This document shows, in pieces, positions 3,480 through 58,431 of a stretch of 64,000 nucleotides of DNA (position 1 is its first letter; each line of letters opens with the position of its first letter). This DNA is from Cyrtodaria siliqua. Taxonomy: Eukaryota; Mollusca; Bivalvia; Adapedonta; Hiatellidae. The stretch is taken from NCBI GenBank assembly GCA_037043455.1, contig JAWPHD010001332.1, positions 248,001 through 312,000 on the forward strand, read 5' to 3'. A program made the translations under genes and the position numbers. The notes under the pieces are model-generated. The model was not told the DNA's origin and made no database searches. It was given only the letters and a program-made list of their open reading frames with translations.

Positions 3480-3640
3480 CATCCATGTGGACAATAATGT
3501 TATAGTCCAGTGGAAATACTAGTTTGTCACAACCATGTGTGTAATACTGTCACAGCGCACAGGGGAAATACCATATGTAGCCTACAGTGGCGATATTAGT
3601 CCATCGCAACCATTTAATGGCCCCTCAGTGCAATACTAGT
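3480..3640. repeat. Copies of the exon A coding tail in its 3' flank
   Basis: The pattern ATACTAGTCC...CAACCATATGTG...AATA(C/T)TG found at the end of exon A recurs in degenerate form near 3516-3550 and 3592-3615. Confidence 0.55.
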
Positions 3641-3943
3641 CCGTCCCAACCATATGTGCAATATTGTCTTTTATATGTACTATCATGTGACTTTTCAGGT
3701 TACTTTTTGTGGAGAAAGGTTTGGCACAGATCTTGCAAACATATGGTTTGTCTCCCTCATGCACGATCCGCTGATGTCTGTTCAACGCCCAAGAGTTTTG
3801 AAAGGCTTTGTCACAGTAAACACAAAAGCTCTGGCTTCTTGGACTTCTGTTTAAAGTATTGTAAGCTGAATGCGCGAAGGCATTGTTGCCAGAGGTGAAA
3901 CTCAAGTCCATAGGAAGTGATAAACCAGCCATTGACGGAAGAC
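3636..3943 (-). CDS. Alternative 3'-terminal exon A, two C2H2 zinc fingers (most distal)
   Basis: The acceptor is ...TTAATTGCAG; the exon starts GT (Ser at the junction), stop TAG. It encodes 102 residues: a Ser/Asn-rich leader (2-40), finger 1 at 41-62 (CVYCDKAF...HQRIVH), finger 2 at 70-90 (CAKPF...HMIVH) and a 12-residue tail. It is the odd member: finger 1 has four residues between His ligands and finger 2 three, the reverse of exons B to H, and the linker is EGDKPYV rather than TGEKPxx. It is about 53 kb from the shared donor and is the last finger exon seen; more could lie outside the window on the left. Degenerate copies of its coding tail occur in the 3' flank (about 3480-3640). Confidence 0.89.
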
Positions 3944-6182
3944 CTGCAATTAAACAGAAATAAAATTATAATTTTATGAAGCACATACAGTGTTATCTAT
4001 CTTATCTTTCTTGTAAATTAAATTCTATAATACAGAAAGAAGACAAACATACAACCCTCCTTGACCCTAGAATCTGAAAAGTGTGTGGGTTTTTTCATCA
4101 GGAACCTTGCACTTTTCTTAAAATTGGAGAAAACTCGCTCTTCATTTTTACTAAAAACATTTTGTGGGTAGGCCAGTTATAGTGTTAGTGGATTAATCCC
4201 AATCTGTCGCTTACTAACATAACCAACTTCTTTACTACAAATCAAATATACTGAAAGAAATAAGTTTAACACATAAATAACATGGTAAATTCCATTCAGC
4301 AGATTCAAGGCTATGTGCTTCAGCTGCCATTAACAATATAATTAACATAATTAACAAGTATATGCAGGACATTTTTTTTAAACGATATCTGCGAATAAAA
4401 GTAGCAACAGGTTTTAATTTACCTGCTTTACAGAAATTATAATTTCGTTCTTATTTCAATATTAAGGGAGATAATTTTAAAATTTAACACTTTGGTTCGT
4501 AATTTCATTTTAATGATAAGGTTAATGTCAGTTGTTTTTGCATTTTTTATCACAAGAACCCCAAAATAGTTATTTAATAAAGTTTAATCCTGTTCTTGAT
4601 AATATTCTTATTTTTAATGTGACAAAAATGTTGTTTTATATAAATGGGAGATAACTCTGATACTTACTTTGAATCACACATAATTGAAAAGAACACCTTC
4701 TGATGCCAAAGTTATCAAATGCTTTACATTATAAAATAAACATTCAGTTTCTTTAAGCACCGTCCTAAACTAATTTCTTTCAGTATATGATGCCATCAAT
4801 TGCACATGAAGATTTGTTGACAATAGGGTAAGAGTCCCTCTATTGTCAAGCATTTTATGTTTGTGATGTCATAAACTTTGCTTTTGTATCTACTTTTTTC
4901 TAAAAGACAGTCTTAGCAAGGGTAACAGTAACTGAACACAAACATTCAAAAGGTTAGACTATATTTATTGATTACACCAATACAATAAAGCTAAGCAACA
5001 CAAACCTACAGCAAACAACACATTAAGACAGTCCTGATCAACTTCTACCAAACAGGCTGTAAATAATAATATTAATAGAGAGAAGAAAAGTAATCCATTT
5101 CCTGTGAAAAAAATACTATATAGGGCTCTTAACTAACACTTTTCGTTCCATCCTTACTAATTCAAAACTGCTAAGTAGTGAGGAATAAATGAATGATGTT
5201 TTACAACCATTTAACAGCTTAGTTGAATAGGTTGGAATTAAATAGGTGGGCGGGGAAGAAGTGACAATAACGGAGAGGAATTGAATTGAATATTGTTTAA
5301 CGGCTCATCAACACAGTATAGGTTATTTAGAGCCGCCCCAGAGAGAGGGGAAGGATACATAGGAATCCGGGAACCTGCCCTACTCTTATTAGCGAATAGA
5401 TTCCTATGGTTCTTTTACGGAGAGGAAGATGATTACCGGAAATTAATATTTTCTCAAACCCCATTCAATTAATCACTTTCAAGTACCCATTGCGGGAATT
5501 CTAGCTTTGTAGGGAATGGAAGTCAGTTATTTCTTTGGCCCATCACCAACCGTTGCCATGTAAACTTCATACTAATGTTACAAAGCAAGTATACAATTTT
5601 GTTGTTTTTTATATTCATATATACATGATCATCTTTGTGTTTAACTTATATGCCTAGTTTGGTGAGAGTAAATAACCCGGTTGGAATTTCTTTATTTACG
5701 CTGTACGGTCTAACTGTGATGACAATGGAGTAGAAGTGAGATTTGATGCACGTGCACCTGACAATCAGAATAGATTTGCTATAAAAGGTCTACAAAATTA
5801 ATTAATATGTGTATGTACAGTTCAAAATATTTACATATATGCCTTAATAAAAACTATTAACATAATTCCTTGGAATTATTTTTATATCTGCTCTTATTAT
5901 TGTATTTTATGAACAAAACATTGCATAAGTCAATAGTGCACATACAAAGTCTCTTTCAAACATGTTTTACAAAAATAGTGAATAATAGTTGTCTCCACGT
6001 TCTTTCTTTTTGCAGTCCATCTTTCAAATTAACCCCACACTTTATTATACCGTTTCCATATACACTTAATTAAACTGCAGCTATATATTCCATGTGTTCT
6101 TAAGCTTGAACTTTGCATCCACTTAAAATGCTATCATAAGAATGTGTAAAGTTAGTGACAGTTTAATATAACTCTGTATATA
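3944..6182. other. Sequence between exons A and B
   Basis: Intron for exon A isoforms and 3' flank of exon B. Apart from a dispersed-repeat copy at 5278-5430 it is AT-rich with no recognisable coding sequence. Confidence 0.6.
5278..5430. repeat. Dispersed repeat copy (GTTTAACGGCT family)
   Basis: Same order of blocks as 2448-2670: TTGAATTGAAT, TTTAACGGCTCATCAACACAG, GAGAGAGGGGAAGGATACAT. Confidence 0.75.
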
Positions 6183-6466
6183 TCACTGAGTATGTCTTCC
6201 ATGCAAAGCATTCACATGTTGAACCATGTTGCCTTTGTGTGCGAACTGTTTACCGCAGTGGCTGCACTTGAACGGTTTCTCCCCGGTGTGTATTCTCATG
6301 TGTATCTCCAGCGCACCGCGAGATGCGAGAATCTTTCCACAGACCACACACGTAGACTTGAGCATTGTGGCCGGTATGTCAAGGTCTCGGAGTTGTTGGT
6401 GCAGGCTGGGATTGTGGGGAATGGCTGGAGGAAATGGTGTTGTTTGCGAATGATAAAGCCCTGTCA
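6183..6466 (-). CDS. Alternative 3'-terminal exon B, two C2H2 zinc fingers
   Basis: The acceptor is ...TTTTCTCTTTCAG; the exon starts TG (Met at the junction). It encodes 94 residues: a Pro/His/Gln-rich leader (2-39), finger 1 at 40-60 (CVVCGKIL...HMRIH), canonical TGEKPFK linker, finger 2 at 68-89 (CSHCGKQF...HVNALH, X4 type) and tail GRHTQ. Finger 1 belongs to the LEIHM group with C, D and E, and has Leu at the core Phe position. A coding-strand AATAAA at 6041-6046, about 140 bp past the stop, is a candidate poly(A) signal. Confidence 0.91.
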
Positions 6467-6610
6467 CTGAAAGAGAAAATAATGGATTCAAACTAACTTT
6501 AGACAAAAGATACAAGATTCTCCATAGAAAGTATTAAATACATTAACTAGATTTACGATTAAGTGAATCAAACCGGCCAATATTTAGAAGAAAAGAATAT
6601 GACACGAACT

Positions 6611-7685: not shown

Positions 7686-8148
7686 CACTTCACTTTAAAA
7701 ATACATCATTTTACCGCTACTATATACGTCCATTTACCATGTTTTGCACGTGCATACGTTGATATCTTCATGTAACTAGGTAATGCACAGATCAAAAAAA
7801 CTCGCTACCTTGAAATAAAATTGCATGAATTTGTGAAAAATATCAACTAAATCATAAAATAAATTTTAATTGACTCATAAAAGGCAAAGGAGTTAACCCA
7901 TAATTAGATAATGCCATTTTATAGGATATTTTGGTTTAAAATACATAATGGCATTGAGAATTAACTACACCCAATCCAAAACACAAATGGTCGACATTAT
8001 ATAATTAACCTTCCCCACACATATACACTGCCCTCTACCATATATATTCTCGCTCACATCTACCACCCTGTAACTTCTGGTGAACTTCTCTATCACATAA
8101 ACATGCCTACTATCATATATATATATATCTAGACCCTATTCACTTGTA

Positions 8149-8212
8149 TTAACCCTTAACCCTCTAAAAGAAAGAATAGTCCATTATATATATGTAGTGG
8201 GTTAAGGGTTAA
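8149..8212. mobile_element. Short TTAACCCTTAACC element
   Basis: The ends TTAACCCTTAACC and GGGTTAAGGGTTAA form an inverted pair around a core with a CCATTATATATA block that also occurs in the longer copy ending at 44147. Confidence 0.65.
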
Positions 8213-8925
8213 GTATATACCTCTCCCTCGCACACACATGAAGTGCTCTGTCAAACGTATAAACAACATTATCCGATTTATTCAGTGAAGCATAACGTTA
8301 TACATATGTTCTAAGTTAACCGGTTTTATTTTTTTTAGAGATTACAACCTTACTAGTATTCTGAACCACAGTTCTAACGCAACATGGTGAGTTTTGTCTA
8401 TAGGTGTACCGGAAGTAAATCAAATCCCACTGAGTCCTATGCAATATTGTCCAAGCTTTCTAGTTAGCCATTTTTCAAAATGAAGTTCAAACTAAGATTC
8501 ACTTACATGTTCTTAGTCATGAGACCTGCCTTACTAGAAAACTGCTGAGAATAGAAGGGTTCATGTGGCATATAAGAAAATAAAATTCTGATCTTTGTTG
8601 ACACCGTGAACAAACATTTATTCGGCATCTCTTAAATGTGTTTTACTTTCACTTTCAAAACTTTCAAGTTGATAAATAAAATCATCATACAACCATGCAA
8701 GTGGTTTCTAGCTATCACAAACAAGTCAATAAAGTCATTTCAGCCAGAAAAACAGGCCTTAAATACTCAAAAATGCCATTTATCACAAAATAAGTTAGGG
8801 ATTATATATTTGGGAACTCCTTTCGACTACACCAGGCATGAATACCACAGTGATTTACTTCCTGTATACCTATATTACTTTAATATGTGATGGACACTTC
8901 AATATGATATGGAAACACATCCAGT

Positions 8926-9168
8926 ACTCAACTTTTATAATCGGTCACCCAGCTGGTTTTGAAAATAACATGCATACTAAAAACTGGAAATCACTGAAAC
9001 ACACACCAATAGTTTGTTAAGTTTATCAACAATGTAATCTGAAATCTTTTTTTTTTAGATTACATTGTTGATAAACTTAATAAAATATTGGTACGTGTTT
9101 CGGTGATGTTTTGAGTATTCGTGTTATTTTCCAAAAAAAATGGGTGACCGATTTTATAAAAGTTGAGT
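8926..9168. repeat. Large imperfect palindrome, arms about 120 bp
   Basis: ACTCAACTTTTATAATCGGT at 8926 is matched by ACCGATTTTATAAAAGTTGAGT ending at 9168. The inner arms GTTTATCAACAATGTAATCT and AGATTACATTGTTGATAAAC are perfect, with a short T-rich loop. Likely a MITE or foldback element. Confidence 0.85.
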
Positions 9169-9258
9169 AGTGTACAGTAACTGTTACTGAGATTTTCGAT
9201 GAAACTGTAGTCTGAGGAAATGCTTAATCTGGTTTGTATCTGATCAGTATTTCATATT

Positions 9259-9534
9259 ATCACAAAACTTACAGTGTGGGAGTGGAATAACACCATTCTA
9301 TATTTTCAATATACCACTAGTTATATATAAGTATGCAAATAAGCCTAGTATGCGCTGTCAAAAATAATGACTATGATCCAATTCCCATGGTTTATGTCGG
9401 TTTAGCATGTTAAAGCGACAGGCAAAATGCAATAAAAGTCGATATGTGAGTTATGTGATAATAAAATCTACCATTCGTTCTCATTCATTATTGACTTTAT
9501 TAAACTCGTTATGATATGCTTGGCAAGAGCCTCG
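9259..9534. repeat. Block shared with exon D 3' flank (copy 1)
   Basis: Aligns almost continuously with 15671-15960, from ATCACAAAACTTACAGTGTGG to TTGGCAAGAGCCTCG. Lies downstream of exon C, as the second copy lies downstream of exon D. It carries a coding-strand AATAAA. Confidence 0.8.
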
Positions 9535-10118
9535 AAAAGGCGAGACAAAAAGTAAGGGTGTGCTCTTTTTAATAATTGCCCACAGATATTTTCTTTTCCT
9601 GTTGCAGGTGATAAAACAATAGTGTGAGGTTAGATGAAGAGCGATTAGACAACACTGACAGCAACATGCGACACATTTGTGGGTGCTGAAGATGTGTATG
9701 AATTTAGGTGCAAAGTCTTTAGTGAAAGTCGAAAAGAGGAACTTGTCTGACACCACTGACATTAAAAAAAAAACTGTGCCATGTACCAGATTTTGTGGAT
9801 TTTTATGAGCGGCAATAACTGTATTTTACCAAAAAAAAACTTTAAGACTGTAAATGTCACATTCAGAATGGTGAAAAGTATAATACTAGATATGAACATG
9901 TACCTATTCAATTAGATACTCCTATAACAAGACCCGGAAATAATAATAGACAAATAAAAAGTGGCTAAGGAAAATTGGACTTTACTCCTAATGGCCAACA
10001 CAGCAAAATCGAAGTGTGGTGTGAGACCTGAAGTATGCCAGGAAACTCTAATTTGTCCACACTCAAGTTGAAGTATAAACTATAAATCTTAGTACTCATT
10101 TCACATATATCCCCATTT

Positions 10119-10666
10119 CTACTGAGGTTGATACAATGGATCATGCACGGCTCTGATGTGCTGATATTTGTTACTCTTGTTTGCAAATGCATGTCCGCAG
10201 AAGTCGCACCTGAAAGGTCTTTCCCCGGTATGGGATCTCATGTGAATCTCAAGTTTCCCTTTCGATGTCAAAACCTTTCCACAAACCAAACAGACATGTT
10301 TGTACTGGTTCCCAGAAATTATGCTCAACAGGTTCCCACTCACAGACTGGTTTTCAACATATTCTGGGTCATGCACAGCTCTGATGTGCTGAAATTTGTT
10401 ACACTTATTCGAAAAGGTATTCTCACAAAAGTCGCACTTAAAAGGTTCTTCCCCAATATGTGATCTCATATGAATCTCAAGTTTCCCTTTCGATGTCAAA
10501 TCCTTTCCACAAATCCAACAAATTGTATTTGACTGGTTCCCAGTTACTACACTTGACAGGTTCCCACTCATAGACTGGTTTTCATCAGATTCTGAAGTAA
10601 ACTGACTGGTTCTGGAACTTGCAAACAGGTTAAGATCTTGTTGAGGAATATAATAATGGAGCGCTC
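10119..10666 (-). CDS. Alternative 3'-terminal exon C, four C2H2 zinc fingers in two pairs
   Basis: The acceptor has a strong pyrimidine tract ending TTTCAG; the exon starts GA (Arg at the junction). It encodes 182 residues, about twice the usual length, because the two-finger cassette is tandemly duplicated. Fingers lie at 50-70 and 78-99, then 126-146 and 154-175; the tail is DPLYQPQ. The spacer repeats too: NQS(M/V)SGNL plus a GNQ before each pair. In the first pair the linker is HIGEEPF, departing from HTGERPF of the second, and finger 2 reads NKCNKF where the second copy has NKSNKY. All zinc ligands are intact in all four fingers. The second pair is closest to exon D, so the first pair seems to be the diverging copy. 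This isoform could contact a longer DNA site than the others. Confidence 0.92.
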
Positions 10667-10807
10667 CTGAAAAAAAAAGAAGAAAAAGATTGAGATTTTT
10701 TTAGTATCTTGATATGTAAAATGTGTTTTTGTTAGCATGGTATGTTTAGATTCTTAAAGTTGTTTGTTAAGTTATTAATCATTACAAACTTAATAAACTA
10801 ACAAGTA

Positions 10808-11102
10808 AGGCCAAATAAAATAATAGGTGTGGTTCCAGTTTCCCGACCGACCCTAAACATTTTACGTTTTGCATTTTATGTTTTCTTTTTAATTATTTTT
10901 TCTATCAGTTCTGTATCTGATGATATCAACAAATATATAGTTAAGTTTATTTATTTATTGGGAATAAAAGTATAGTGTAAAAAAAAAAAAAGACAAAATA
11001 TAAAAATTAATATTTTTAGAAAATTAAATTTGCCCTACCTACTACCTACCCTACTTTTTTTGAGCATGTAATAGGAACCACACATATAATTTTATTTGGC
11101 CT
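10808..11102. mobile_element. AGGCCAAATAAAAT MITE (copy 1)
   Basis: The ends AGGCCAAATAAAATAAT and ATTTTATTTGGCCT are inverted. The sub-ends hold CCCGACCGACCC and CTACCTACCCTAC blocks found in the other copies (18535, 36943, 51548). Confidence 0.8.
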
Positions 11103-12380
11103 AACTACTAATCAGACCTTGAAGTCGTCACAGGACTCTTGACTCCCACGAATGTGTAAATTATAAAATAAAATAACAGCCTATAAACTCTCAGAATATG
11201 CACTTTTATTAAGGAGTCTGTCCTTATAAATGTCAAATCCCACTGAAATTGAATACGAAATTGATACAAAATCAGAACTCAAATATTCTCGAATATTTTT
11301 ACATGAAACTTTTAGTTAGTATGTCTTCAACTTTTGTCAGTACTACCCATGAATTATGGGAATTATACTGAAAAGGCGATCCCTTGCCTTGGCAGCACAA
11401 AGGGCGACTTTTTTTACAGCAGCCACACAGCACTAAACAAACACTAGTGTGAACTTGATAAATATATAAATTGATCAATACTTAGCTTAGGTCATAATCT
11501 AGGTCATTTGTATATTGATTAATTTACATATTCATCAAGTTTGTATTTAAGGTATAAGCAGAAATTAATTATCCTTAAAAACAACTTTTCATAAGTTGTC
11601 TCAATATAATTTCCATTCACTCAGAACAATTAAGTACTTTTAATAAATGCTATCCAGTGAAAAATTTGTTAATTAGTGATATCCAAATATTTATAAACAA
11701 TGTGGTTAATTAGTGCAAAAGGTATAGACCAATGGAAGAAAGGAAACACTCATTTTGCAAGTACATTTATTAGTTTTTGTTTATTTACACACAAAACATG
11801 AAACATTAAATTAACAACTCTCATACACAACCCCAGTCTCATAGATAATAAATTGTCAGACAAGCCTTTCAGATGTGAATTTCAGACTAATAAAGGCTTG
11901 AAGCAAAACTTGACTTGGTCATTTGTTAGGTAGAGAAAATCTACAAGATGAAAAAATATTTACTACTAAAGCTGCTGTTCACCACCTGAACACCTATCAA
12001 TTATCTTTGAATGGCCATGCCAATGTTTCTCCAAGTTTGGTTCATTCAGGCTAATAAGTAGTAATAAGCACATTTGATATTTCCGCAAACGAAAGCCCGG
12101 TTGTAATGACCTTGTTGGATGTTTGGGTGCGGATTATTAGAGTAAAAAGGTTTCAAAGGAATGAAAAGTCCACTTTAAACAGTCTATTAAATCATTTTAG
12201 AATTATTTTATTATGATAAGTTACTGTTTCTGGATTTCAAGAACCTCATTCCTCAATGTCAAGTAAAGCCTCAATGTGTTCTAAGAATGTAATTAGTTTT
12301 AAACTAACTGGTTTCATTGGTCCAATTTTTATCACTGAGCCAATCAGATTGCTTCATTCATATTTTCATTTGGTTGTTTC

Positions 12381-12454
12381 TATCATGACATCACTTGCTG
12401 GTATTATGACATCACATCCTGGTATTATGACATCACATCATGCTATTATGATGC
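12381..12454. repeat. 21-bp tandem repeat, about 3.5 units
   Basis: Unit TATTATGACATCACATCCTGG. The units contain TGACATCA-like sites by chance or otherwise. Confidence 0.75.
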
Positions 12455-15560: not shown

Positions 15561-15670
15561 AAGTACATGGTTCTTATCTGTCAATCAAGCTTACATCAAT
15601 CAACGATTTGAGCCAATTAAAGGTAAAATAGGTTTTAACATTGGTCTCACAAATAACTCTTAATACTATT

Positions 15671-16068: not shown

Positions 16069-16403
16069 TCAATTAGCTTTGTACAGGGGATCATGGCACG
16101 CCCGTATGTGTTTGTACTTGTTGCTCTTATTCGCAAAAGTCCCGTCACAAAAGTCACAACTGTACGGCTTCTCTCCAGTATGGGTTCTCATGTGAATCTC
16201 CAGGTTGCCCTTGGATACTGTGATTTTTCCACACACTTTACAGACAAACCGAGGAAGAGAGTGTACAGATATCGACATGGGGATGCCATCTGCTGACTGG
16301 TTTCCTTTATTTAGTTTGAATGGCAAGTACTGGTCCCCTGACTGTTGCTGCTGGTAAATGGATGGTCCAACTTCGGGAAATGTTGCTGGTATTGTTTGGT
16401 TCC
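16069..16403 (-). CDS. Alternative 3'-terminal exon D, two C2H2 zinc fingers
   Basis: The acceptor is ...TTGTTTTTCAG; the exon starts GG (Arg at the junction). It encodes 111 residues: a Gln/Pro-rich leader, finger 1 at 55-75 (CKVCGKIT...HMRTH), TGEKPYS linker, finger 2 at 83-104 (CDFCDGTF...HIRACH, X4 type) and tail DPLYKAN. The second finger and tail ([18 protein letters not shown]) closely match exon C, and both leaders contain a GNQ phrase. C and D also share a block of 3'-flanking sequence (9259-9534 and 15671-15960), supporting duplication of an exon plus its flank. Thr replaces the core Phe of finger 1. Confidence 0.9.
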
Positions 16404-17800: not shown

Positions 17801-18009
17801 TCAGGTTAAGCCCTCCCAGGCAAGATGGACAGCAAACACATGTGCTTTCTGGTTACTCTTATTGGCAAAGCGCCTGTCACAGTGTGGGCATTTGTAGGGC
17901 TTCTCCCCAGTGTGCTTCCTCATGTGAATCTCCAGTGAGGCTTTTGATGCTTGCATCTTTCCACATACTGCACAGTTAAATCTAGATCTAGTATTAACCT
18001 CGCTGCCAC
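17801..18009 (-). CDS. Alternative 3'-terminal exon E, two C2H2 zinc fingers (shortest)
   Basis: The acceptor is ...TTTTAATTGAAG, with a less favourable base before AG; the exon starts GT (Ser at the junction). It encodes only 69 residues, the shortest of the set, and lacks an upstream Met, so ATG-based searches miss it. The leader is 12 residues, finger 1 at 13-33 (CAVCGKMQ...HMRKH), canonical TGEKPYK linker, finger 2 at 41-62 (CPHCDRRF...HVFAVH, X4 type), tail LAWEGLT, stop TGA. Finger 1 has SKASLEIHM like B, C and D, and Gln instead of the core Phe. The weaker acceptor could mean low usage. Confidence 0.87.
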
Positions 18010-20616: not shown

Positions 20617-20906
20617 TCACTTATTATAAACATGCACAGAAAACACGTGTGACTTCATGTTGCTCTTGTGGGAGAACCCTTTCTGGCAGTAATTACAGAC
20701 GAACGGTTTCTCTCCGGTATGTTTCCTCATGTGCAAATCTAACGCTGACTTTGCGTGAAATACTTTGCCGCAGTGTGGACAGTTGTGCCTGTAGCTGATA
20801 CCAGCTGCTGTGCATATGCCACACTGCTGCGGGTTGTCACAGACATGGGCGTAAGTACCAGCAGATCTGCTCAACATCGACATTGCATCATGTTCACGGA
20901 ACTGAT
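20617..20906 (-). CDS. Alternative 3'-terminal exon F, two C2H2 zinc fingers
   Basis: The acceptor is ...TTTTATTTTCAG; the exon starts AT (Asn at the junction). It encodes 96 residues: leader with [10 protein letters not shown], finger 1 at 43-63 (CPHCGKVF...HMRKH), TGEKPFV linker, finger 2 at 71-92 (CNYCQKGF...HVFSVH, X4 type) and tail VYNK. It is the close paralogue of exon G. The leader has three conserved Cys just ahead of finger 1 (C-X6-C-X2-C) that do not fit the C2H2 pattern and are kept in G; they may form part of an extra metal site or a disulfide, which is speculative. Confidence 0.91.
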
Positions 20907-23183: not shown

Positions 23184-23464
23184 TCACTTATAAACATGTA
23201 CAAGAAACACGTGCGACTTCATGTTGCTCTTGTGGGAGAAGCCTTTCTGGCAGTAATTACAGATGAACGGTTTCTCTCCGGTATGTTTCCTCACGTGCAA
23301 ATCTAACGCTGACTTTGCCGGAAACAGTTTGCCGCAGTGCGGACATGAGAGCCTGTATGAGATACCAGCTGTTGTACATATGCTACACTGCTGTGGGTTG
23401 TCACAGACGTGGGCACTGGCAGATCTGCTCGACATCGACACTGCATCATGGTCACCATACAGAT
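23184..23464 (-). CDS. Alternative 3'-terminal exon G, two C2H2 zinc fingers
   Basis: The acceptor is ...TTATTCTTCAG; the exon starts AT (Asn at the junction). It encodes 93 residues: leader with the Cys-containing phrase [10 protein letters not shown], finger 1 at 41-61 (CPHCGKLF...HVRKH), TGEKPFI linker, finger 2 at 69-90 (CNYCQKGF...HVFLVH, X4 type) and tail VYK. It is nearly identical to exon F 2.6 kb away across the leader, both fingers and the tail. The similarity continues into the 3' flank, so a segment larger than the exon was copied. The finger helices ([14 protein letters not shown]) are the same in F and G; if both are used they probably bind the same DNA. Confidence 0.91.
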
Positions 23465-26266: not shown

Positions 26267-26556
26267 CTACTGTCCCTCATTAAAATCTACTAGTTTATTG
26301 TTATGCACAGAAAACATGTGTCTAGTCAGGTTACTCTTGTGTGTGAAAGCCTTAGGACACAAGTGACAGGTGAAGGGCCTTTCCCCAGTGTGACTCCTCA
26401 AATGCAACCTTAACGCGGAGCTCGCTGCGAAGATCTTGCCACAGTGCTGACAAACGTTCTTGATGAAGTAAGTCATGTGCTCCTCCCCATGCTGAGTGTG
26501 TAAAGCCTGATAATATGGATCGATTCCGCCATGTGCTAACGACTCTTGTAGAATAT
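26267..26556 (-). CDS. Alternative 3'-terminal exon H, two C2H2 zinc fingers
   Basis: The acceptor is ...TTCTACTTCCAG; the exon starts AT (Asn at the junction). It encodes 96 residues: a His/Glu-rich leader (2-35), finger 1 at 36-56 (CQHCGKIF...HLRSH), TGERPFT linker, finger 2 at 64-85 (CHLCPKAF...HMFSVH, X4 type) and an 11-residue tail. Finger 1 keeps the core Phe. The finger 1 helix (ASSALRLH) is related to F/G (AKSALDLH), but the leader is not. An AATAAA hexamer on the coding strand at 26119-26124, about 140 bp past the stop, is a candidate poly(A) signal. Confidence 0.9.
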
Positions 26557-27437: not shown

Positions 27438-27718
27438 TCAAAGTATGTTACTGCCACATTGACCGCTATCAGGACCTGGAGTAAACTGGGCCTTCGGATG
27501 GGTTCTAAGATGTGTTGTGAGATTACTTTTATGGGCAAATTCCCAACCACAAATGCTACACTTATACGGTTTCTCTCCTGTATGAACCCGCTCGTGTACC
27601 TTGAGGGCCCACGGGGATGCTGCAAACTTGCCGCAGAATTTACATTTGTGCTTAAGCATGACTGCGTTCATGACCGTTCCTGGTTCTCGAAATTGACTTG
27701 CATGCATAAAACTGGCAC
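27438..27718 (-). CDS. Alternative 3'-terminal exon I, two C2H2 zinc fingers
   Basis: The acceptor is ...TTATATTGTAG; the exon starts GT (Ser at the junction). It encodes 93 residues: leader, finger 1 at 26-46 (CKFCGKFA...HERVH), TGEKPYK linker, finger 2 at 54-74 (CSICGWEF...HLRTH) and a 19-residue tail containing PGPDSGQCGSN. It sits only 1.2 kb from exon J. Both belong to the SxWAL group with exon K. The tail is the longest in the set and has no resemblance to the others. A Trp in the finger 2 knuckle (CGWEF) is unusual. Confidence 0.9.
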
Positions 27719-28888: not shown

Positions 28889-29176
<288 letters not shown>

Positions 29177-31454: not shown

Positions 31455-31693
31455 TTAAAATGGCACTTTATTTAAATGCGAGTATTTATGCACAGTCAAG
31501 TTGCTCTTTTGAGCAAACTTTTTACCACAAACATCGCAACCAAATGGCTTTTCTCCAGTGTGTATTCTCTCATGCAACCTAAGTGCCCAATTTGACGACT
31601 GTATCTTGCCGCAAAATTTACAGTAGAAGGCTGAAATGGCAATTCCTGCCACTTGCGGCTGACTTACGATCCCAGTAGCATTGCTATCCGGCC
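31455..31693 (-). CDS. Alternative 3'-terminal exon K, two C2H2 zinc fingers
   Basis: The acceptor is ...TATGTTTCAG; the exon starts GG (Arg at the junction). It encodes only 79 residues: short leader, finger 1 at 25-45 (CKFCGKIQ...HERIH), TGEKPFG linker, finger 2 at 53-73 (CDVCGKKF...HKYSH) and tail LNKVPF. Finger 1 contains the SNWAL core typical of exons I, J and K, and lacks the usual Phe. All three share the CKFCGK start and HER-hydrophobic-H end of finger 1, so they form one duplication group spread over 4 kb. The last coding bases resemble the 40-bp tandem repeat lying just downstream (31306-31422). Confidence 0.9.
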
Positions 31694-34172: not shown

Positions 34173-34492
34173 CTATTCCAAGAAAACAGATCCGTGAACA
34201 CTAAATATGTGAGCCTTAAGGTTATTTTTCTGCGCAAATCCTTTAGAGCATGCCTGACAGACATAAGGTTTCAAGCCAGTATGAATACGGCGATGAATCT
34301 CAAGCTGAGATTTGTAACCAAATACCATCCCACAATGCTCGCAGTTAAAGGGCGGGGCCCAATTGCTCTCTTGAGGTGGTGAAGTCAGTGTCTGTTCCAA
34401 ACTCGACTGACGCTGTGCTGGTACAAATGGCTGGGTCAAGGTCGAAGACAATGACCTTGACCTCTGTACAGGATTATGAACCTGGTGTAAAC
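34173..34492 (-). CDS. Alternative 3'-terminal exon L, two C2H2 zinc fingers
   Basis: The acceptor is ...ATCCTTACAG, with a short pyrimidine tract; the exon starts GT (Ser at the junction). It encodes 106 residues: a Ser/Gln/Thr-rich leader (2-50), finger 1 at 51-71 (CEHCGMVF...HRRIH), finger 2 at 79-100 (CQACSKGF...HIFSVH, with X4 between the His residues) and tail GSVFLE. The interfinger linker reads TGLKP rather than TGEKP, a change in an otherwise highly conserved linker that could alter how the two fingers pack on DNA. The first finger retains the core Phe. Closest to exon O in helix pattern (KSQLEIH versus KSHLDIH). Confidence 0.9.
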
Positions 34493-37884: not shown

Positions 37885-38198
37885 TCACTTCGTGAACGTT
37901 ACCACGCTAGAATCTAACAGATCTTTGTGCACAATCATATGAGTTTTCAGATGATATTTCCTTCGAAATGATCTTCCACAAAGTCGACATACGAAAGGCT
38001 TTTCTCCAGTATGTGTTCTCATGTGGCTATTTAGATGGGAAATGCACTTCACGCGTAGCCCACACATCTGGCAGTTTAACTGTTTCTTTTCCCCACTTTG
38101 TATGTAGTTATATTGCATGTCCGTTCCCACATTCCAAGAGTCGGCGTCCGAGTGATCGCTCAAATTGCCAATGCTTCCCATAGCAATCACTTGCGGAT
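37885..38198 (-). CDS. Alternative 3'-terminal exon M, two C2H2 zinc fingers
   Basis: The acceptor is ...CATTCTTTCAG; the exon starts AT (Asn at the junction). It encodes 104 residues: leader with DSWNVGTDMQ, finger 1 at 43-63 (CQMCGLRV...HMRTH), canonical TGEKPFV linker, finger 2 at 71-91 (CRLCGRSF...HMIVH) and a 13-residue tail beginning KDLLD. It is the paralogue of exon N: same leader phrase, same missing Phe in finger 1, near-identical finger 2. Both fingers are C-X2-C-X12-H-X3-H. Unlike N it has no obvious tail repeats in its 3' flank. The upstream intron carries SINE-like copies. Confidence 0.9.
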
Positions 38199-41099: not shown

Positions 41100-41340
41100 A
41101 CATTTTTACGCACAATTAAATACGGTTTCTACAAGATATCTATGCACAACCATATGGAGTACCACCTCATCTCTATGCACAATCGTATGTTTTTTCTATA
41201 AGATCTCCAAGTTAAGAATGCAGTTTATATACAAACGTATTTCAACAAAACACTACTGTCTTTTCTATAAGATCCTTATGCACAAATATATGGGTTTCAA
41301 CAACATCTTTTTTTTATGTAAACAAATGTTTTTTCTACAA
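41100..41340. repeat. Repeats of the exon N coding tail in its 3' flank
   Basis: TCTACAAGAT(A/C)T...TATGCACAA(C/T)CATATGG recurs four to five times at about 40-bp or larger spacing. The last exon N coding bases (41355-41395) carry the same TCTACAAGCTCTTTATGCAC. Confidence 0.75.
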
Positions 41341-41660
41341 GATCTTAACGCATGATGAGTTCTCTACAAGCTCTTTATGCACAATCATATGGGTTTTCAG
41401 ATGGTATTTCCTGATAAATGACTTTCCACAAACTGGGCACACAAATGGTCTTTCTCCAGTATGTGTCCTCATGTGTTGTTCCAAATGGGAAACAAATTTC
41501 ACATTTAATCCGCATATTTGACAATTCACATCTTTTGGTCTATATTTTCTGCTATCCAACAGTTCTGGCTTGAGTTCCATTCCAACATTCCAAGAGTCTC
41601 CATAGTTGCCATCCTCAGACAGCGACTGATTGGTCCAATTTCCTAAGTTGTGGACTTCCA
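41335..41660 (-). CDS. Alternative 3'-terminal exon N, two C2H2 zinc fingers
   Basis: The acceptor is ...CCATTTCAG; the exon starts TG, giving ATG (Met) at the junction. It encodes 108 residues: an acidic, Asn-rich leader with the phrase DSWNVGM, finger 1 at 47-67 (CQICGLNV...HMRTH), linker TGERPFV, finger 2 at 75-95 (CPVCGKSF...HMIVH) and a 13-residue tail beginning KELVE. Finger 2 has the helix residues RKYHLKT, shared exactly with exon M 3.2 kb away apart from the residue just before; the leaders also share DSWNVG. N and M are therefore a duplicate pair. Finger 1 has V where most C2H2 fingers have the core Phe. The coding sequence of the last His and tail is echoed several times in the 3' flank (41100-41340). 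Confidence 0.9.
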
Positions 41661-44147: not shown

Positions 44148-44151
44148 TTTA

Positions 44152-44486
44152 TTATGGCCTTATATGAACAACCATGTGAGATTTCATGTTGTTTCTCTGT
44201 GCAAAGCCTTTTCCACAAATGTCACATTTGAACGGTTTTTCTCCAGTATGAATCCGATAATGAATATCCAAGTGTGATTTGCAGGAGAAGCTCCGCCCAC
44301 AAATCGAACACTGATTCTGAGCAGTCGTGTCTGATGCCGGAATCCAGGGCTTCTGTCCAACGTTACTGGGAGCCTCTCTTTGAAATGCTATTTGAGACGC
44401 GGGTTGATTGTATTGCTGTGTCGGCGGTTCTAAATATCCAGAGATAGAATTGCTACGAGATAACCCAGGATTGAACGCCTGATAAT
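44152..44486 (-). CDS. Alternative 3'-terminal exon O, two C2H2 zinc fingers
   Basis: The first finger exon after the shared exon, about 13 kb downstream. The acceptor is ...CATTTCAG; the exon begins AT, which completes AAT (Asn) with the shared donor base. It encodes 111 residues: a Gln/Asn/Ser-rich leader (2-59), finger 1 at 60-80 (CSICGRSF...HYRIH), a canonical TGEKPFK linker, finger 2 at 88-108 (CDICGKGF...HMVVH) and a three-residue tail IRP. Both fingers are C-X2-C-X12-H-X3-H. The reading frame has no Met in a useful place, so it is easily missed by ATG-based ORF searches. The stop TAA is followed at once by a second TAA, and an AATAAA hexamer overlaps it at 44148-44153. A repeat element begins four bases after the stop. 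Its fingers most resemble exon L. Confidence 0.88.
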
Positions 44487-47800: not shown

Positions 47801-48246
47801 CTTCAAATCAACCGATTGTATGTGTCAAGCAACATGGATGTTTCTGACTCCTCCATCCCTTACCCTCCCATCCATAACACCATAACAGGTATTTTATTTG
47901 TAAAATACATAAAAAATTCAACTTATTTTTTCTTGACATTAAATATTACAAAACATGTTCTTCATTTCACTGAAGCAATATTGTAACTCACTGAATTTCC
48001 AAAACTTCCAACTTTTTCATTCTAACATTCACGAATGTCAAAAATCAGTATCACATGCCTATCCAAAATGGCTGTTTAACAGCAATCAAAAAAGCTATAA
48101 CATTTGATACAAACATCCTGCAAATTATCAGCTATGACAAGTGTTTTTTCAAAAATAAAAAACACAAATGGCCCATTCAAATCTTGTATCACAGCTTATA
48201 AACTTTTTAGCAACACATCTTAAGTGCTACAAAGTAATCAACATAT

Positions 48247-48729
48247 ACTGAAATGCAAAAGAAATGCAACACGGGAATATCCGCTATATATTGTATATAC
48301 TGCACACTTAATTGCACATAATATTCCAAAGAAATCCCAAGATGTTTTGTAAAAAAAAGTTACAGTTAATTAGAAAAAGGACACAACTGTGATGCTGTAG
48401 ACGTTTTAATCACAGTACACGTGGTAACAAGAACTTCATTAATGTTGAAGTTGCTCTTTGAAAAACTGAGCCAGTTCAGTACTGTATTTAACATAAAGAG
48501 TTTGCAAAATTTTGCATCCTAAGTATGCTCATATGGCTCTCTAAGTTTGCTCACATGCTTGAGCCAAACGCGTACTCTGTCAATAATGAAACTTTGAAGG
48601 AATACTATTTACTGTATTATGTGTTGTTTTAGTTGTTTTTCAAAAAGGAAAGGTCTTACGTAGCCATGTAGCATTGTGCATACAATATATAGCGGAAATT
48701 CCTGTGTTGCGTTTCTTTTGCGTTTCAGT
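48247..48729. mobile_element. MITE with long terminal inverted repeats (copy 2, inverted)
   Basis: The ends ACTGAAATGCAAAAGAAATGC and its near complement GCGTTTCTTTTGCGTTTCAGT. The interior matches 6611-7075 in reverse (GGTCTTACGTAGCCATGTA, CATGCTTGAGCCAAAC). Confidence 0.85.
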
Positions 48730-50951
48730 GTGTTTTATTTTTAAGTGAACTATTTCAATGCTGTATTCACAATAATATAAGTTTGTGTATTTGAGATTTT
48801 CAAATTGTTCAAGATCACGATAATTCTTGAATTCCATTTGGTGTCATTAACTCTAGATTAGTTGCTGGGTTAAATGCAACATCTGACAGAGTTTTGTTCA
48901 AAATAACACCTACCGACACTCTCACATCACTACAAGCCTTGTATACAACACTGTGCATTTGCTGTTAACATTATAACTGCTTAAGCCAGTACTAGGAGGC
49001 GTGAGCGGTGTTGCACTTAACGTTACCTCTCATGAACAGACTCAATAAAACCTGAGTCTACTACTTTTATCTCTTCTTTGCGTTTGTTGTTTCTAAGGGA
49101 TCCACTTTTGAGTATGTATTCATTGATTTCAATAACCCATGTCCTGTACCTTTGACTTGTTAAATGTTAGTACAATAATGGCAAGCAAACTCTCCACAAA
49201 CACACCGTCTCCATCCCACCAGTAACACCTAATGCTGATGCTAACGGAGCAGCAAAATAACTGATACATTATCTTCAGCAGTATAAACTGCAACACTAAT
49301 GCATTTACTGGAATCACCCACAATTCTAGTTGTTTACAAGGCCAACAAATACTTGTATACAAATTATATCACAGTTTATAGACCACATCTATGCTAGTAC
49401 CTGTGAAATAAAGCAATTCTGTAGAATCTCTCATTAATAACTAGGCCTTGTTGTTACATATAAACACTATCATGTTCTGTAATACTAAAACACATTAAAA
49501 TCGCAGAAGCAGTCGACTGCCATTGTCATTTCCAGCTCCAGTTAACACAAATATATTACTCACAAACAACATATTGTCCATGCTTACATGGCAGAGTCAA
49601 TATACAGACAAAATCTACCTGAAGTAGAGTATTCCTTGTTGCTTAATCTCTTGCAATCATTGCTGGATTATGCATACTCATATAGAAATTGTCTTTATTG
49701 CTATGGTAACAGTCTTCTGATATCACTATTAGTGAGGGAGTGTGAACACCATCAAATTTCCATTTTCCAGCTGATTTTGATGTAGCTCATCATTTTCATT
49801 AAAAATCACAGATTGCACAACTTTGTCTACATTGAAATCACAACACAGATTGTACAACATGTCTTCATTGAAATCACAAGAAATCCTCCTATCCAAATCA
49901 AATGTCTCACAAAACGCTGCTGTGTCAGTAAATAATACAAGATGTTAATTTTCCATATATATGTAAACATGACTCAAAGGGAAAAAGCAACAGCCGAGGT
50001 TTCTCTTTTTTCTCTCCGAAAATGGAAAAAACAAACTATACTTGTATTTTAATCATCATTTAAAATGATGGTGTCTGCATTCACATGTTAAACTGGTGTT
50101 CCAAGGTCTCTTACTTGGATTTAAACAACATATTTTATTTTCATACAGATGCATTTATATGGAATGGGAATTCCAAAGGTCATGGAACATATCAATAACA
50201 AACACATTTTAATTGTTGTATGTTTCTTCTGTATTATTACCAACATGTAACAGCAATGCATTGTTCATTTGAATGGATGAAATATCTAACGGAAATGACC
50301 AACATTGCAATATTGATTAAGAAACAACTGCCAAATATACATATAGTAAACAGGGATCACTTTAGGCCGCGATTCCACGATATTCTCGCGTTAATATAGA
50401 GAAAATCTAAAAAGTAACCAAAAATTGCGTAAAAAATCGGGTCTAAATCCTCCTATGTGTATCAATGCTCTTTCGCATTAATAATTATATATCCTTTCTC
50501 CGGCAGTTTCTCAGCAACAAACAGCAACTCTTTATGGCTATCATTTAGGCGTTTGCCAATGAATTTTACAATAAGCTTCAGAAGATCGTTATATTTTGAG
50601 TCATGCCAACGAGGTAGGAATTGTGACCTGTCCCAAGTGTGCCACTTTCTTCAAAATTCATGATGTTAACAAGAATAATGTCATTACCAGGGGTTGAGTA
50701 ACGTTTTTTACAAACTGGCATAAGTGTATTCTTACTGGCATTTTTTCTTCTTCTTTTGGTCAAAGAAATTTCTGCGAATACACTACTAAAGACAGCAAGT
50801 AACTCCTTTTGTTATTTGAGTAATATATCAATCATGCTAAATTTGTACAGAAAAGATGTACTCACAGTTTTTTATGAGTGCTGAAAATTTCAACTTGCAT
50901 CTTCTCAAGACAATTCACATTTTGTGAGTTTGCAAGTGCTAAATTCAAGCC

Positions 50952-51547
50952 CTGATTACAGGGGTAACCAACGAGACCCCGGACTGCCCTGATTTCAGGG
51001 ATAATCAATGAGACCCCGGACTGCCCTTATTTCAGGGATAATCAAGGTACCCCGGACTGCCCTGATTTCAGGGATAATCAAGGTACCCCAGACTGCCCTG
51101 ATTACAGAGGTAATCAATGAGACCCGGACTACCCTGATTACAGAGGTAATCAATGAGACCCCGGACTGCCCTGATTACAGAGGTTAATCAATGAGACCCC
51201 GGACTGCCCTGATTACAGAGGTTATCAATGAGACCCCGGACTGCCCTGATTACAGGAGTAATCAATGAGACCCCGGACTGCCCTGATTAGAGGTAAACAA
51301 TGAGACCCCGGTCTGCCCTGATTACAGGGGTAATCAATGAGACCCGGACTACCCTGATTACAGAGGTAATCAATGAGACCCTGGACTGCCCTGATTACAG
51401 AGGTAATCAATGAGACCCCGGACTGCCCTGATTACAGAGGTAAACAATGAGACCCAGGACTGCCCTAATTACAGGGGTAATCAATGAGACTCCGGACTGC
51501 CCTGATTACAGGGGTAATCAATGATGAAACCCCCGATGGCCCTGATT
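50952..51547. repeat. Minisatellite, 37-38-bp unit (left block)
   Basis: Unit CCCTGATTACAGAGGTAATC plus AATGAGACCCCGGACTG, repeated about sixteen times with small length changes. The array continues at 51926. Confidence 0.92.
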
Positions 51548-51925
51548 AGGCCTAAAAAAAAAATATGTGTGTTTCTGGTTTCACCCTGTCAAAAAGTTAG
51601 GGTAGGTAGGTAGGGAAAAATTGTTTTTTTAGATATTTTTTTTATATATATTGTTCGCATATATTATGCCATTTTTGTACTAAGGCAACTTTTTGATAAC
51701 CTTTGCAAACAGTTTGGATCCAGATTAGATGCTTAACAACTCTGGCTAATAAAATTATCATTTGAATAAAACTATTTTTTGTTTGATTGTAATATTTCCT
51801 TTTTTTTTATTTCTTTTTTTTTAAAAAAAATTAAAAAAAATTTTTGCTAAAAATATTTTGGGTCGGCGGTGAAAAAGTAAGGTCGGTCGGGAAACCGGAA
51901 ACAGACATATTTTTTTGTTAGGCCT
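51548..51925. mobile_element. AGGCCTAA MITE inserted in a minisatellite
   Basis: The ends TAGGCCTAAAAAAAAAATATG and ATATTTTTTTGTTAGGCCT are inverted. It has GGTAGGTAGG and GGTCGGTCGGGAAACCGG blocks of the same family as 10808, 18535 and 36943. The satellite resumes directly after it. Confidence 0.85.
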
Positions 51926-52325
51926 TACAGAGGTAATCAACGAGACCCCGGACTGCCCTGATAACAGAGGCTATCAATGAGACCCGGACTACCCTGATTA
52001 CAGAGGTAATCAATGAGACCCCGGACTGCCCTGATTACAGGGGTAATCAACGAGACCCGGACTGTCCCGATTACAGAGGTAATCAATGAGACCCTAGACA
52101 GCCCTGATTACAGAGGTAATCAATGAGACCCCGGACTGCCCTGATTACAGAGGTAATCAATGAGACCCGGACTACCCTGATTACAGAGGTAATCAATGAG
52201 ACCCCGGACTGCCCTGATTACAGAGGTAATCAATGAGACCCGGACTACCCTGATTACAGAGGTAATCAATGAGACCCCCTCCCAGACAGCCCTGATTACA
52301 GGTAATCAACGAGACCCCGGACTAT
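51926..52325. repeat. Minisatellite, 37-38-bp unit (right block)
   Basis: About ten further units of the same array, ending GAGACCCCGGACTATGG. Confidence 0.92.
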
Positions 52326-55884: not shown

Positions 55885-56890
55885 TCGTAGTTTTAATCAA
55901 AATCCTGCCAGACCCTATTTTGAACCAAAATCCCACTTGACGGACCTTATTTTAACCAAAATCCTGCCTGAACTGACCTTGTTTTGAACCAAAATCCTGC
56001 TGGACCGTATTTTGAACCAAAATTCCGCCTGACAGACCTTTTTTTTAACCAAAATCCTGCCTGAATGGATCTTAATTTGAACCAAAACCATGCCTTATTT
56101 TTAACCGAAATCAACAGATCTTAATTTGAACCAAAATCCTGCCAGACCTTATTTTGAACCGAAATCCTGCCAGACCTTATTTTGAAGCAAAATCCTGCCT
56201 TACTGACTTTATTTTGAACCAAAATCCCACTTGAAATGACCTTATTCAGAACCAAAATCCCACCTGAACTGGCCTTATTCAGGAATAAAATCCTGCCTGA
56301 ACTGGCCTTATTTTGAACCAAAATCCTGCCCGAACTGACCTTATTTTGAACCAAAATCCTGCCTGAGCTGACCTTATTTTGAACCAAAATTCCACCTGAA
56401 CTGGCTTTATTCAGAACTAAAATCCTGCCTGAATGGATCTTAATTTGAACCAAAACCATGCCTTATTTTTAATCAAAATCAACAGATCTTATTTTGAACC
56501 AAAATCCTGCCTTACTGGCCTTATTTTTTAACCAAAATGCTGCCAGAGCTTATTTTGCAAAATCCTGCCTTATTGGAACCAAAATCCTGCCTCACTGGCT
56601 TTATTTTGAACCAAAATCCCACCTGAACTGGCCTTATTTTGAACCAAAATCCTGCCCGAACAGACCTTTATTTGAACCAAAATCCCGCCTATGCTGACTA
56701 TTTTGAACCAAAATCGTGCCTGAACTGATAATTTTTAACCAAAATCCTGTATGAACTGACCTTATTTTGAGCCAAAATCCTGTCTGAACGGGTTTTAAAC
56801 CAAAATCATGCCTGCCCGAACAGATCTCCTTTTGAACAAAACTCCTGCCTGAACTGATGACTTTTTTGCACCAAAATCCAGCCTACGGTG
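55885..56890. repeat. Minisatellite, about 32-35-bp unit
   Basis: The unit TTATTTTGAACCAAAATCCTGCCTGAACTGACC in variants runs for about 1 kb, roughly thirty units. Open frames on either strand are repeat artefacts. Confidence 0.92.
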
Positions 56891-57150
56891 ATCTGATATT
56901 GCACCCAAATCCTTTTAATCTATAACCTTTTCATAAAATAAATGTACAATTCAACTCTATATTGCTGGACAGACAATAGACCTGTTCTTGGGAAAGGGTA
57001 AAATAATTAACAAAATCAGATGGCTGACCATATGAAGATTCTTTTAAAATGAATATGGAAGCCACAGATGAGAACTTAATAATTAATTAACTTAATAATA
57101 CTGAATACTGATCAATGCAATTATTGAAGTGAAACAAGGGAGAAAAGTGC

Positions 57151-57222
57151 AGGGGGTAGGGGACTTGAACCCGGGACCCTCTCTTACAGGGAGAGTGCTC
57201 TACCACCTGAGCTAAATGTGCC
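57151..57222 (-). repeat. tRNA-like sequence (pseudo-tRNA or SINE head)
   Basis: On the minus strand it has TAGCTCAGGTGGTAGAGCA (A box and D arm), a perfect CTCTC/GAGAG anticodon stem with loop CCTGTAA, and GGGTTCAAGTCCC (B box). The acceptor stem does not pair, the T stem is short and the base before the would-be anticodon TGT is C, not T. It is therefore not a functional tRNA as seen. Confidence 0.75.
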
Positions 57223-57519
57223 GTCAGGTACCCAATACTACTACATTAACTTACAATATATAGATGTAATTTATTGACCCGAGAGGTAATCAAATTTCCT
57301 CCTTCATCAAGATCGAAAAGAAATGAATCTGCGTGAAATGGTTTCTTAACTGTTAAGGTTGACCAATCAAACATTAAACCACCCTCATTACTGAATCTTT
57401 AAACAATCAGCTTGTGCACTTTAAGGCATTTCGATAATTTACGTTTATTTCAAGAGCTTTACAGGTCGCCATGAATGGGAGATGATCAATCATAGGAAGT
57501 CTGGAAATTTGGTACTTAC

Positions 57520-58431
57520 TGTAGCCTGGTTCTGATCCCGACATATCAGCCTGACTTCCGGTTGCGCCGGGCCCCATCCTGCCATGTGGTGCCCAGTTAT
57601 TTGGTGACCCCATTGGGTCCACACCACTGCCACTACCAAGTTCTACACCAGTTATTTCTAACTCCATTTCAGATTCAGTTATTGCCTCAACTTTAACGTT
57701 AATATTCGGATCCATCTCCGCACTAGTTCCTTGGGTTTGATCTTGATGCATTGATGACGATGAGTCAGTTATGGCTGAAGCTTCCCTGGATATAAGATTT
57801 GACAAGTCTGAATCTAAACTAAGTCCTTCAGGCGGAACAATGTCACTAGATTTGAGATCCGACGCTTCGTTAGGAATGGTGGATGATGATGATTCTGATC
57901 TTGCGTCGTCATCTTTATCTGATGATTCTGATTTGATTTGTGATGGTGTAGATGATGCAGTGGTGGGCATGTGTGATGGCGAGGATGGCTGACTAGAACT
58001 GGCTGTACCGGCCCCTTGCCGGGCATTGTCACTAACACTATTGTTTATTTCCGAATCCTCGGGATCATCCTCCTCTATCTTGATCACTTGACCTTCGATT
58101 CTATTCCCCAATGGCAGTCTCATAGCTCCATGATTTGGGGCGGCGGGGTTTACATTTTGTTGTTCAAAGTTTAATGAAGGTCGTCTCGGCGGTCTCTGCA
58201 TGGGATATGGTTCGTGCCGCATACCTTGTGCACGTATATGTGCGCCCGGCGATGCACGAGTAAGTGCCACAGGATGAATTCTGGGCTGTCCTTGATGTTG
58301 TGGCGATGAAAAGCGTGGTGACCTTGACGGCATGAAACTTGGCCTTGGGCCTCCATAGCGAGGTGGCGTCTTTGGCATCTGACGCATGGCTTCTTCCTTT
58401 TCCTTCTCTTGCTGCTTTTTTCTATGGTGGC
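57520..58431 (-). CDS. Shared internal exon of a zinc-finger transcription-factor gene (linker region)
   Basis: Open reading through 304 codons, bounded by a good acceptor (pyrimidine-rich ...ACTTTCCAG at 58432) and a GTAAGT donor starting at 57519. Both ends are phase 1, so the exon is symmetric. In order it encodes a basic stretch (HHRKKQQEKEKEE, residues 2-14), a Pro/Arg-rich segment (about 20-90), an acidic patch, and a long Ser/Asp/Glu-rich low-complexity region to the end. Three sumoylation-type motifs of the form hydrophobic-K-x-E are present: IKIE (117-120, followed by acidic residues), IKSE (166-169) and VKVE (246-249). No folded domain is visible. It looks like the disordered linker between an N-terminal domain, probably BTB, encoded beyond 64000, and the zinc-finger tails. 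The final base A plus two bases from any downstream exon completes a codon, so all fifteen finger exons can join in frame. BTB identity is inference; coding status and boundaries are well supported. Confidence 0.85.

Follow-up and report, generated by a model that had tools for sequence, protein, structure and literature searches.

Results

Locus and extent of the array

The window analysed here, a stretch of 64 kb, lies within a 333-kb contig (C1332) of the 2.9-Gb Cyrtodaria siliqua genome. Its minus strand holds one long shared exon followed by fifteen exons encoding C2H2 zinc fingers (Table 1); all fifteen lie where a preliminary description had placed them, including the two cassettes it saw in the exon starting at 10666. 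The array of fifteen in that description was too small, since reading the contig less 20 kb gave 42 finger exons over 252 kb, the 27 further ones (E16-E42) lying on the same contig downstream of the low end of the window. The search picked up only open frames with an intact finger, and badly decayed copies would escape it. All 42 finger exons have the same orientation as the common exons, with none seen on the opposite strand, and the same reading of the contig shows a single N-domain exon pair and a single linker exon against the 42 finger units. The membership of E42 is less sure because it lies 57.8 kb past E41, across a gap with GPCR-like and reverse-transcriptase-like open reading frames. 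Paralogous arrays are present in the same genome, and the paralogous contigs (C5767, C3212, C4210 and C3904) show the same layout.

No tRNA and, at gathering scores, no known RNA family was found in the window. Among 65 of its 201 non-finger open reading frames of at least 60 residues, none matched BTB, BEN, DUF3504 or transposase at E 0.01; three weak and unrelated single matches (E 0.0005-0.004) were noted among the same 65.

Table 1. Exons of the locus on the window scale (exons 1 and 2 lie outside the window).
Feature	Position	Strand	Remarks
Exon 1	66251-66162	-	contains ATG
Exon 2	64794-64638	-	N-domain
Shared linker exon (third coding exon)	57520..58431	-	phase 1 in, phase 1 out
E01, alternative 3'-terminal exon	44152..44486	-	two C2H2 fingers, own stop
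E02, alternative 3'-terminal exon	41335..41660	-	two fingers
E03	37885..38198	-	two fingers; old duplicate of E02
E04	34173..34492	-	two fingers
E05	31455..31693	-	two fingers
E06	28889..29130	-	two fingers
E07	27438..27718	-	two fingers
E08	26267..26556	-	two fingers
E09	23184..23464	-	two fingers
E10	20617..20906	-	two fingers
E11	17801..18009	-	two fingers
E12	16069..16403	-	two fingers
E13	10119..10666	-	two cassettes, each with two fingers; 228-bp tandem duplication within the exon
E14	6183..6466	-	two fingers
E15	3636..3943	-	two fingers

Splice sites and phase

The donor of the shared exon, at 57520, reads GGC TAC A/GTAAGT (slash at the splice site) and is of phase 1, as had been described; the exon itself, previously given as 304 codons, measures 912 nt and consists of 2 nt, 303 codons and 1 nt. 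Exons 1-3 have compatible splice sites, and their joined reading, ...GFCLK-R-HHRKKQ..., matches that of the relatives. Each of the fifteen window acceptors has an AG at the predicted base and leads into an open frame that encodes a finger cassette and ends in a separate stop; in 15/15 this acceptor was the top-scoring one among 6-18 AGs in frame and of phase 1. Over the contig, the best acceptor was of phase 1 in 42/42 finger exons versus 113/360 control (non-finger) frames. This ranking of acceptors is the independent evidence for the phase. The exon lengths of 2 modulo 3, to which attention had been drawn earlier, are correct but follow automatically from the choice of a phase-1 acceptor and are hence not independent support.

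Judged by their reading frames, all 42 finger exons stay open beyond the last finger and then end in a stop, which does not fit mutually exclusive exons of the Dscam type, where the alternatives are internal and have a donor and a constant 3' part. AATAAA occurs within 136-730 nt 3' of each of the fifteen window exons, which at a density of 1.95 per kb is no better than chance. A k-mer comparison revealed no motif near the acceptors that was clear after allowing for the number of k-mers tested; TGCATG, upstream of 10/42 acceptors where random intron AGs predict 1.6 (Poisson 8e-6 before correction for the thousands of k-mers tested), is a lead for a splicing-code motif and no more.

Zinc fingers and growth of the array

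The window contains 33 strict C2H2 motifs, of which 32 fall inside these exons on the minus strand, whereas 20 simulated windows (second-order Markov) held 0-2 (mean 0.3). Two strict motifs are present in 40 of the 42 exons, three in one and four in one, and no half-broken exon with a single strict finger left was among those found. The fingers are under purifying selection, pN being lower than pS in 41/41 neighbouring cassette pairs (mean 0.30 versus 0.84). The predicted contact residues form 41 distinct sets across the 42 exons; E09 and E10, the least diverged of ten window cassette pairs compared (dS 0.22), have identical ones.

The nearest match in sequence lies at most two places away for 24/42 exons, against 4.0 predicted from shuffled order. 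When one-to-one orthologues of the finger exons were sought in other species, the picture was mixed, the best match among 80 foreign cassettes exceeding the best own non-neighbour for 19/42 exons. Comparison of 36 Mercenaria with 21 Ruditapes cassettes yielded 11 reciprocal best pairs, four of them at 74-86%, so that some exons do persist within the Veneridae.

N-terminal domain and linker

A BTB exon had been anticipated upstream of 64000. Upstream exons were found, but they encode another conserved domain of about 85 residues (N-domain), absent from the window itself, and are 97% and 91% identical to a hand-entered consensus. In four relatives no Pfam match of the N-domain was better than E 0.3, sequence comparison with the PDB produced no credible hit (best E 0.21), and, with 150 of 540 candidates scored, the BTB matches listed in this genome all fall outside C1332. 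A BTB front was rejected on these grounds. Fold matches were weak when a MADS/SRF or NRF1-type dimerisation fold was compared; the N-domain may dimerise, in which case isoforms could pair. The linker exon is of low complexity, acidic and Ser-rich, and its product is probably disordered.

Relatives in bivalves

In five imparidentian bivalves, databases annotate related loci as genes with many isoforms. In 10 groups of isoforms with identical fronts from Mercenaria, Ruditapes and Mya, 53/53 annotated isoforms compared diverge exactly after the phase-1 donor, and the first residue past the switch is always one of those that an A/NN codon can encode (N, S, I, K, M, R or T). Five proteins with N-domain and fingers (P0005, P0094, P0097, P0126 and P0132) are encoded on contigs that measure 1.46-2.10 kb, cannot accommodate the introns and thus carry the spliced form. 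Among 62 listed proteins with the N-domain, strict finger motifs number two in 51, one in 6 and three in 5. More than two fingers appear in 11 annotated models (P0023, P0029, P0036, P0045, P0085, P0106, P0121-P0124 and P0131), so that either one pair per protein is not a strict rule or these models contain errors.

The nearest protein found, P0001, is 59% identical to the shared part, and a linker tree groups it with the window, with support that is not firm (88/65). Every relative with a species name is a bivalve, in agreement with the molluscan setting proposed earlier. Searches with the N-domain gave 23 matches among proteins of 495-1575 aa (21 species-named) and 33 among proteins of 80-254 aa (five species-named), all species-named ones being imparidentian bivalves; other lengths, the matches that bear no species name and diverged relatives leave room for a wider spread. 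Mercenaria LOC123539568 and LOC123540335 and Ruditapes LOC132745172 and LOC132744376, for example, match the window gene in N-domain, linker, phase-1 junction and finger ends and belong to the same family, whose definition (N-domain, linker and phase-1 finger exons) the window gene shares.

Discussion

The locus is very probably one minus-strand transcription-factor gene whose front is spliced to one of about 42 alternative 3'-terminal finger exons. The earlier proposal of one shared exon serving alternative terminal exons is thereby supported, and we infer the joins from exon 3 to the finger exons from the anatomy together with the annotated isoforms and short spliced contigs of relatives. 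The common part would be encoded by three exons (ATG, domain and 303-codon linker) and have 386 residues, comprising the N-domain and the acidic linker, and each transcript would join the donor at 57520 to one of the 42 or so phase-1 acceptors, in cis and with all exons in use in C. siliqua. Each terminal exon would add 68-182 residues, as a rule with a finger pair, and end in a stop, presumably followed by a separate poly(A) site. The predicted products of about 450-570 residues would have a constant front and a different DNA-binding end for each choice. Local tandem duplication of exons would account for growth of the array and purifying selection for its retention.

The alternative that survives best, though unlikely, is joining in trans, with the finger exons having their own promoters and being trans-spliced to the common part. 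An array of 252 kb implies a long pre-mRNA, and mod(mdg4) offers a precedent (excerpt of PMC12692577), but the terminal exons of that gene, according to the same excerpt, occupy both strands, whereas here 42/42 run in the same direction as the common exons; the lack of a clear k-mer motif near the acceptors also argues weakly against trans joining. Serial use of the exons, yielding many-finger proteins, is very improbable: eleven relatives' models (e.g. P0121, P0123 and P0131) do have more than two fingers, but every exon reaches a stop after its last finger, so that a donor would be needed before each stop, and 51/62 N-domain relatives have exactly two strict fingers.

Slightly less probable still are separate zinc-finger genes with own promoters and starts, wrongly chained by annotation pipelines. 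Zinc-finger genes often form tandem clusters in animal genomes, and adjacent cassettes here are tandem duplicates, but the 42 units share a single acceptor phase and, over the part of the contig that was read, have one N-domain pair and one linker between them rather than an N-domain exon each, the join is seen in five short spliced contigs and 53/53 annotated isoforms of relatives, and the layout is repeated on paralogous contigs. Least probable of all is a decaying array with few exons in use; badly decayed copies would escape the search, but at least two intact fingers in each exon found and the low pN of all neighbouring pairs speak against it.

The splicing of one front to alternative terminal exons is thus the reading retained, and the gene is best read as a member of a bivalve family whose 3'-terminal finger exons are used alternatively, resembling lola in design and not by descent. 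To our knowledge, genes that yield dozens of transcription factors through exchange of 3' finger exons are known as a peculiarity of arthropods linked to the BTB domain. Clustered protocadherins also combine an exon array with one constant part, but their alternatives are first exons with own promoters, whereas those of the clam gene are last exons. The mod(mdg4) gene, with ends of the FLYWCH type, resembles the clam gene in its constant part and many alternative 3' ends. Its front is BTB (excerpt of PMC11426971), and its one constant part serves more than 30 alternative 3' ends, with terminal exons on both strands and all trans-spliced (excerpt of PMC12692577), whereas the clam gene uses one strand and another N-domain.

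In lola, as excerpted from PMC5127561, a common 5' part is followed by alternative 3' exons, mostly with two C2H2 fingers, giving at least 20 isoforms, of which 17 have fingers; trans-splicing contributes (excerpt of PMC12692577). Both genes have common 5' exons followed by alternative 3' ends with a common phase and own stops, as judged for the clam from anatomy and relatives, and both have a finger pair in their terminal exons. However, lola starts with BTB and the clam gene with a different N-domain in which BTB was not found, and the clam gene has about twice as many finger exons. TTK-type BTB factors, which were looked for and not found in Mollusca according to an excerpt of PMC11426971, combine an N-terminal oligomerisation domain with C-terminal fingers, and the clam gene would share this plan, oligomerisation of its N-domain being a guess. 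Since the front domain is unrelated and not BTB, the clam design looks like an independent invention, which of the two origins considered earlier leaves this one standing and not deep conservation of lola.

A wider and more doubtful reading, to which we give less than even weight, is a combinatorial transcription-factor locus, larger than lola and invented independently in bivalves, with 42 finger ends, several loci per genome and a common, new dimerising N-domain. A pair of isoforms would then read a split DNA site, allowing up to 903 different dimers per locus, and more with paralogous loci. This reading includes loci that swap in QRICH1/DUF3504 or BEN-like ends, which would make the common part a general adaptor.

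The clam gene would show that the lola-type design can arise twice, on an unrelated domain, and would provide a second system for asking what maintains arrays of this kind and how the choice among 42 acceptors is made. No description of a bivalve N-domain/linker/finger gene family was found in the literature searched. The observations point to a large bivalve regulator family whose isoforms currently carry unrelated names, NCBI naming them singly after proteins such as sal-like, luna and myoneurin.

The gene and its array of finger exons

The shared exon and the fifteen alternative zinc-finger exons of the preliminary description are present at the positions claimed for them. The window holds 33 strict C2H2 motifs, 32 of them on the minus strand within these fifteen exons, versus 0-2 in simulated sequence of equal make-up. 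The exon lengths, all 2 modulo 3, had been presented as the register that the shared donor needs; phase 1 stands in all fifteen, but the length register is a mere consequence of picking phase-1 acceptors, and acceptors were therefore scored blind to phase. Each AG before the first finger, in every open frame, was ranked by a simple, hand-made score (polypyrimidine content, base -3 and AG exclusion). The top-ranked acceptor was the claimed one in 15 of 15 exons, each in phase 1. The splicing logic originally proposed is correct.

The array is real, but fifteen exons are only about a third of it. Contig C1332 (332,849 bp, bases 248001-312000 of which form the window; genome 2.88 Gb in 26,948 contigs) was read throughout except 8001-28000, and the array continues downstream to a total of 42 finger exons, from E01 at 292486 to E42 at 40302. 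The best acceptor was in phase 1 in 42/42, versus 113/360 non-finger frames of the same contig as control. A scan of C1332:28001-38000 for further finger exons added none. The remaining matches on the contig as read, two strict motifs on the plus strand and four to the loose pattern (one plus, three minus), look like noise, and no plus-strand match was accepted as a finger exon. The same reading found only one linker (shared) exon and one exon pair for the N-domain, a conserved N-terminal domain of ~85 residues.

Finger exons are mostly spaced at 1-7 kb and up to 16.6 kb, with 57.8 kb ahead of E42, which is the least secure member because this gap contains three GPCR-like and two reverse-transcriptase-like ORFs. 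The three 7tm_1 ORFs all lie between E41 and E42, on the strand opposite to the array. The hexamer TGCATG, the RBFOX-type motif, is found 150 to 25 nt upstream of 10 of the 42 acceptors versus 1.6 expected, and is a possible handle on exon choice.

Features of C1332 outside the finger exons
Feature	C1332	Window scale	Strand	Remarks
Exon 1 (ATG)	314251-314162	66251-66162		donor CTG|GTATGT
Exon 2	312794-312638	64794-64638		boundaries TTTTCTAG|GTC and AAA C|GTAAGT
Rhodopsin-type GPCR-like ORF (7tm_1)	90690-91964		+	outside window
Rhodopsin-type GPCR-like ORF (7tm_1)	74449-75390		+	outside window
Rhodopsin-type GPCR-like ORF (7tm_1)	59706-61001		+	outside window
Reverse-transcriptase-like ORF	28001-29383		+	near far array end
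Reverse-transcriptase-like ORF	48001-48762		-	near far array end
Reverse-transcriptase-like ORF	71528-72151		-	near far array end
Tandem repeats, introns flanking shared exon		50949-52323, 55911-56884, 62152-63363		units 37-bp, ~33-bp, 319-bp

The N-terminal domain and relatives in other bivalves

The expectation of a BTB domain at the N-terminus was a wrong guess, since the two small exons upstream of the shared exon encode the N-domain, as in relatives. The exon 2/exon 3 junction reads GFCLK-R-HHRKKQ, and relatives read alike. The shared part, used as a query, matched 163 proteins, and the species named among the 120 listed belong to Mercenaria, Ruditapes, Mya, Mactra or Dreissena only, all Imparidentia. 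Full-length relatives open with MA-PDMDVIKEIPGYKVILKAVLKSQIQQLVEQLA...FLGFCLK, followed by the linker and then the fingers. Strict finger motifs number two in 51, one in 6 and three in 5 of the 62 N-domain relatives among the matches listed, where isoform numbers reach X20, X18 and X43.

In 10 groups of at least two members with an identical front within each, the residue after the last Y codon is N, S, I, K, M, R or T in 53/53 proteins, exactly the set that A|NN permits. Among the matches listed, 50/53 finger-less ORFs carry Y/F-S-K in their later part, the residues that result from reading through the donor A|GTAAG. Five proteins without species name have N-domain and fingers on contigs of just 1.46-2.10 kb and are therefore spliced copies, either transcripts or, less likely, retrocopies; their source, 'lgn', presumably denotes assembled sequencing reads. 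In P0138 (Ruditapes) a finger pair follows the N-domain almost directly, as if the linker exon, skippable with phase 1 at both ends, had been left out.

The long proteins P0134 (Mactra, 1,423 aa) and P0135 (Mercenaria, 1,445 aa), which open with the N-domain and close with a single finger pair, are possibly conventional relatives of the array genes. Ends of QRICH1/DUF3504-like type are found in P0125, P0128 (under the family cut-off) and P0130, and P0044 has a BEN-like stretch, under cut-off, placed after a finger; these four carry the same N-domain as finger-ended relatives.

Comparison with known systems

The C. siliqua gene works like lola but falls outside the BTB-ZF family. In the fly, lola produces 20 or more isoforms, of which 17 bear fingers (PMC5127561), and the more than 30 isoforms of mod(mdg4) are all trans-spliced (PMC12692577). 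The oligomerising BTB type of both fly genes was searched for in Mollusca and not found (PMC11426971). No paper describing the bivalve family was found among open PMC papers. The initial observation is real and important.

Origin of the array and its paralogues

Similarity between cassettes (finger pairs) is highest between neighbours, with a mean score of 161 at rank distance 1 and 125 at 8 or more. The best-matching cassette lies within two places in 24/42, versus 4.0 in shuffled order (shuffled maximum 13). In 41/41 neighbouring pairs pN was below pS (means 0.30 vs 0.84, synonymous sites being close to saturation), which indicates that the finger units are old and under constraint. The closest of ten window pairs compared was E09/E10 (dS 0.22). 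Predicted contact residues (-1, 2, 3, 6) form 41 distinct sets over the 42 exons.

N-domain exons matched the genome 55 times; 39 of these matches correspond to exon 2 and are spread over 35 contigs, with haplotype copies included. The linker matched nine times on seven contigs including C1332, two of the nine being adjoining pieces on one contig. A search with finger exon E26, in which 150 of 10,183 candidates were scored, gave at least 47 matches on 11 contigs on which an N-domain or linker exon is also present, and C1332 accounts for 15 of the 47. All 47 listed are on the same strand as, and downstream of, the N-domain or linker exon of their contig, the anchor exon having been chosen for two contigs. 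Among them, two on contig C4210 have an internal stop and two lie inside longer frames (230 and 364 residues), and therefore not all are necessarily intact terminal exons. Together, the N-domain, linker and E26 matches on other contigs indicate that the window's gene is one of several array genes in this genome.

Spaced, same-strand, single-exon partial BTB matches (~residues 4-71 of 110) were seen on C1503, C1640, C173, C4747 and C12966, with at least seven on C1503, and are perhaps another exon or gene array.
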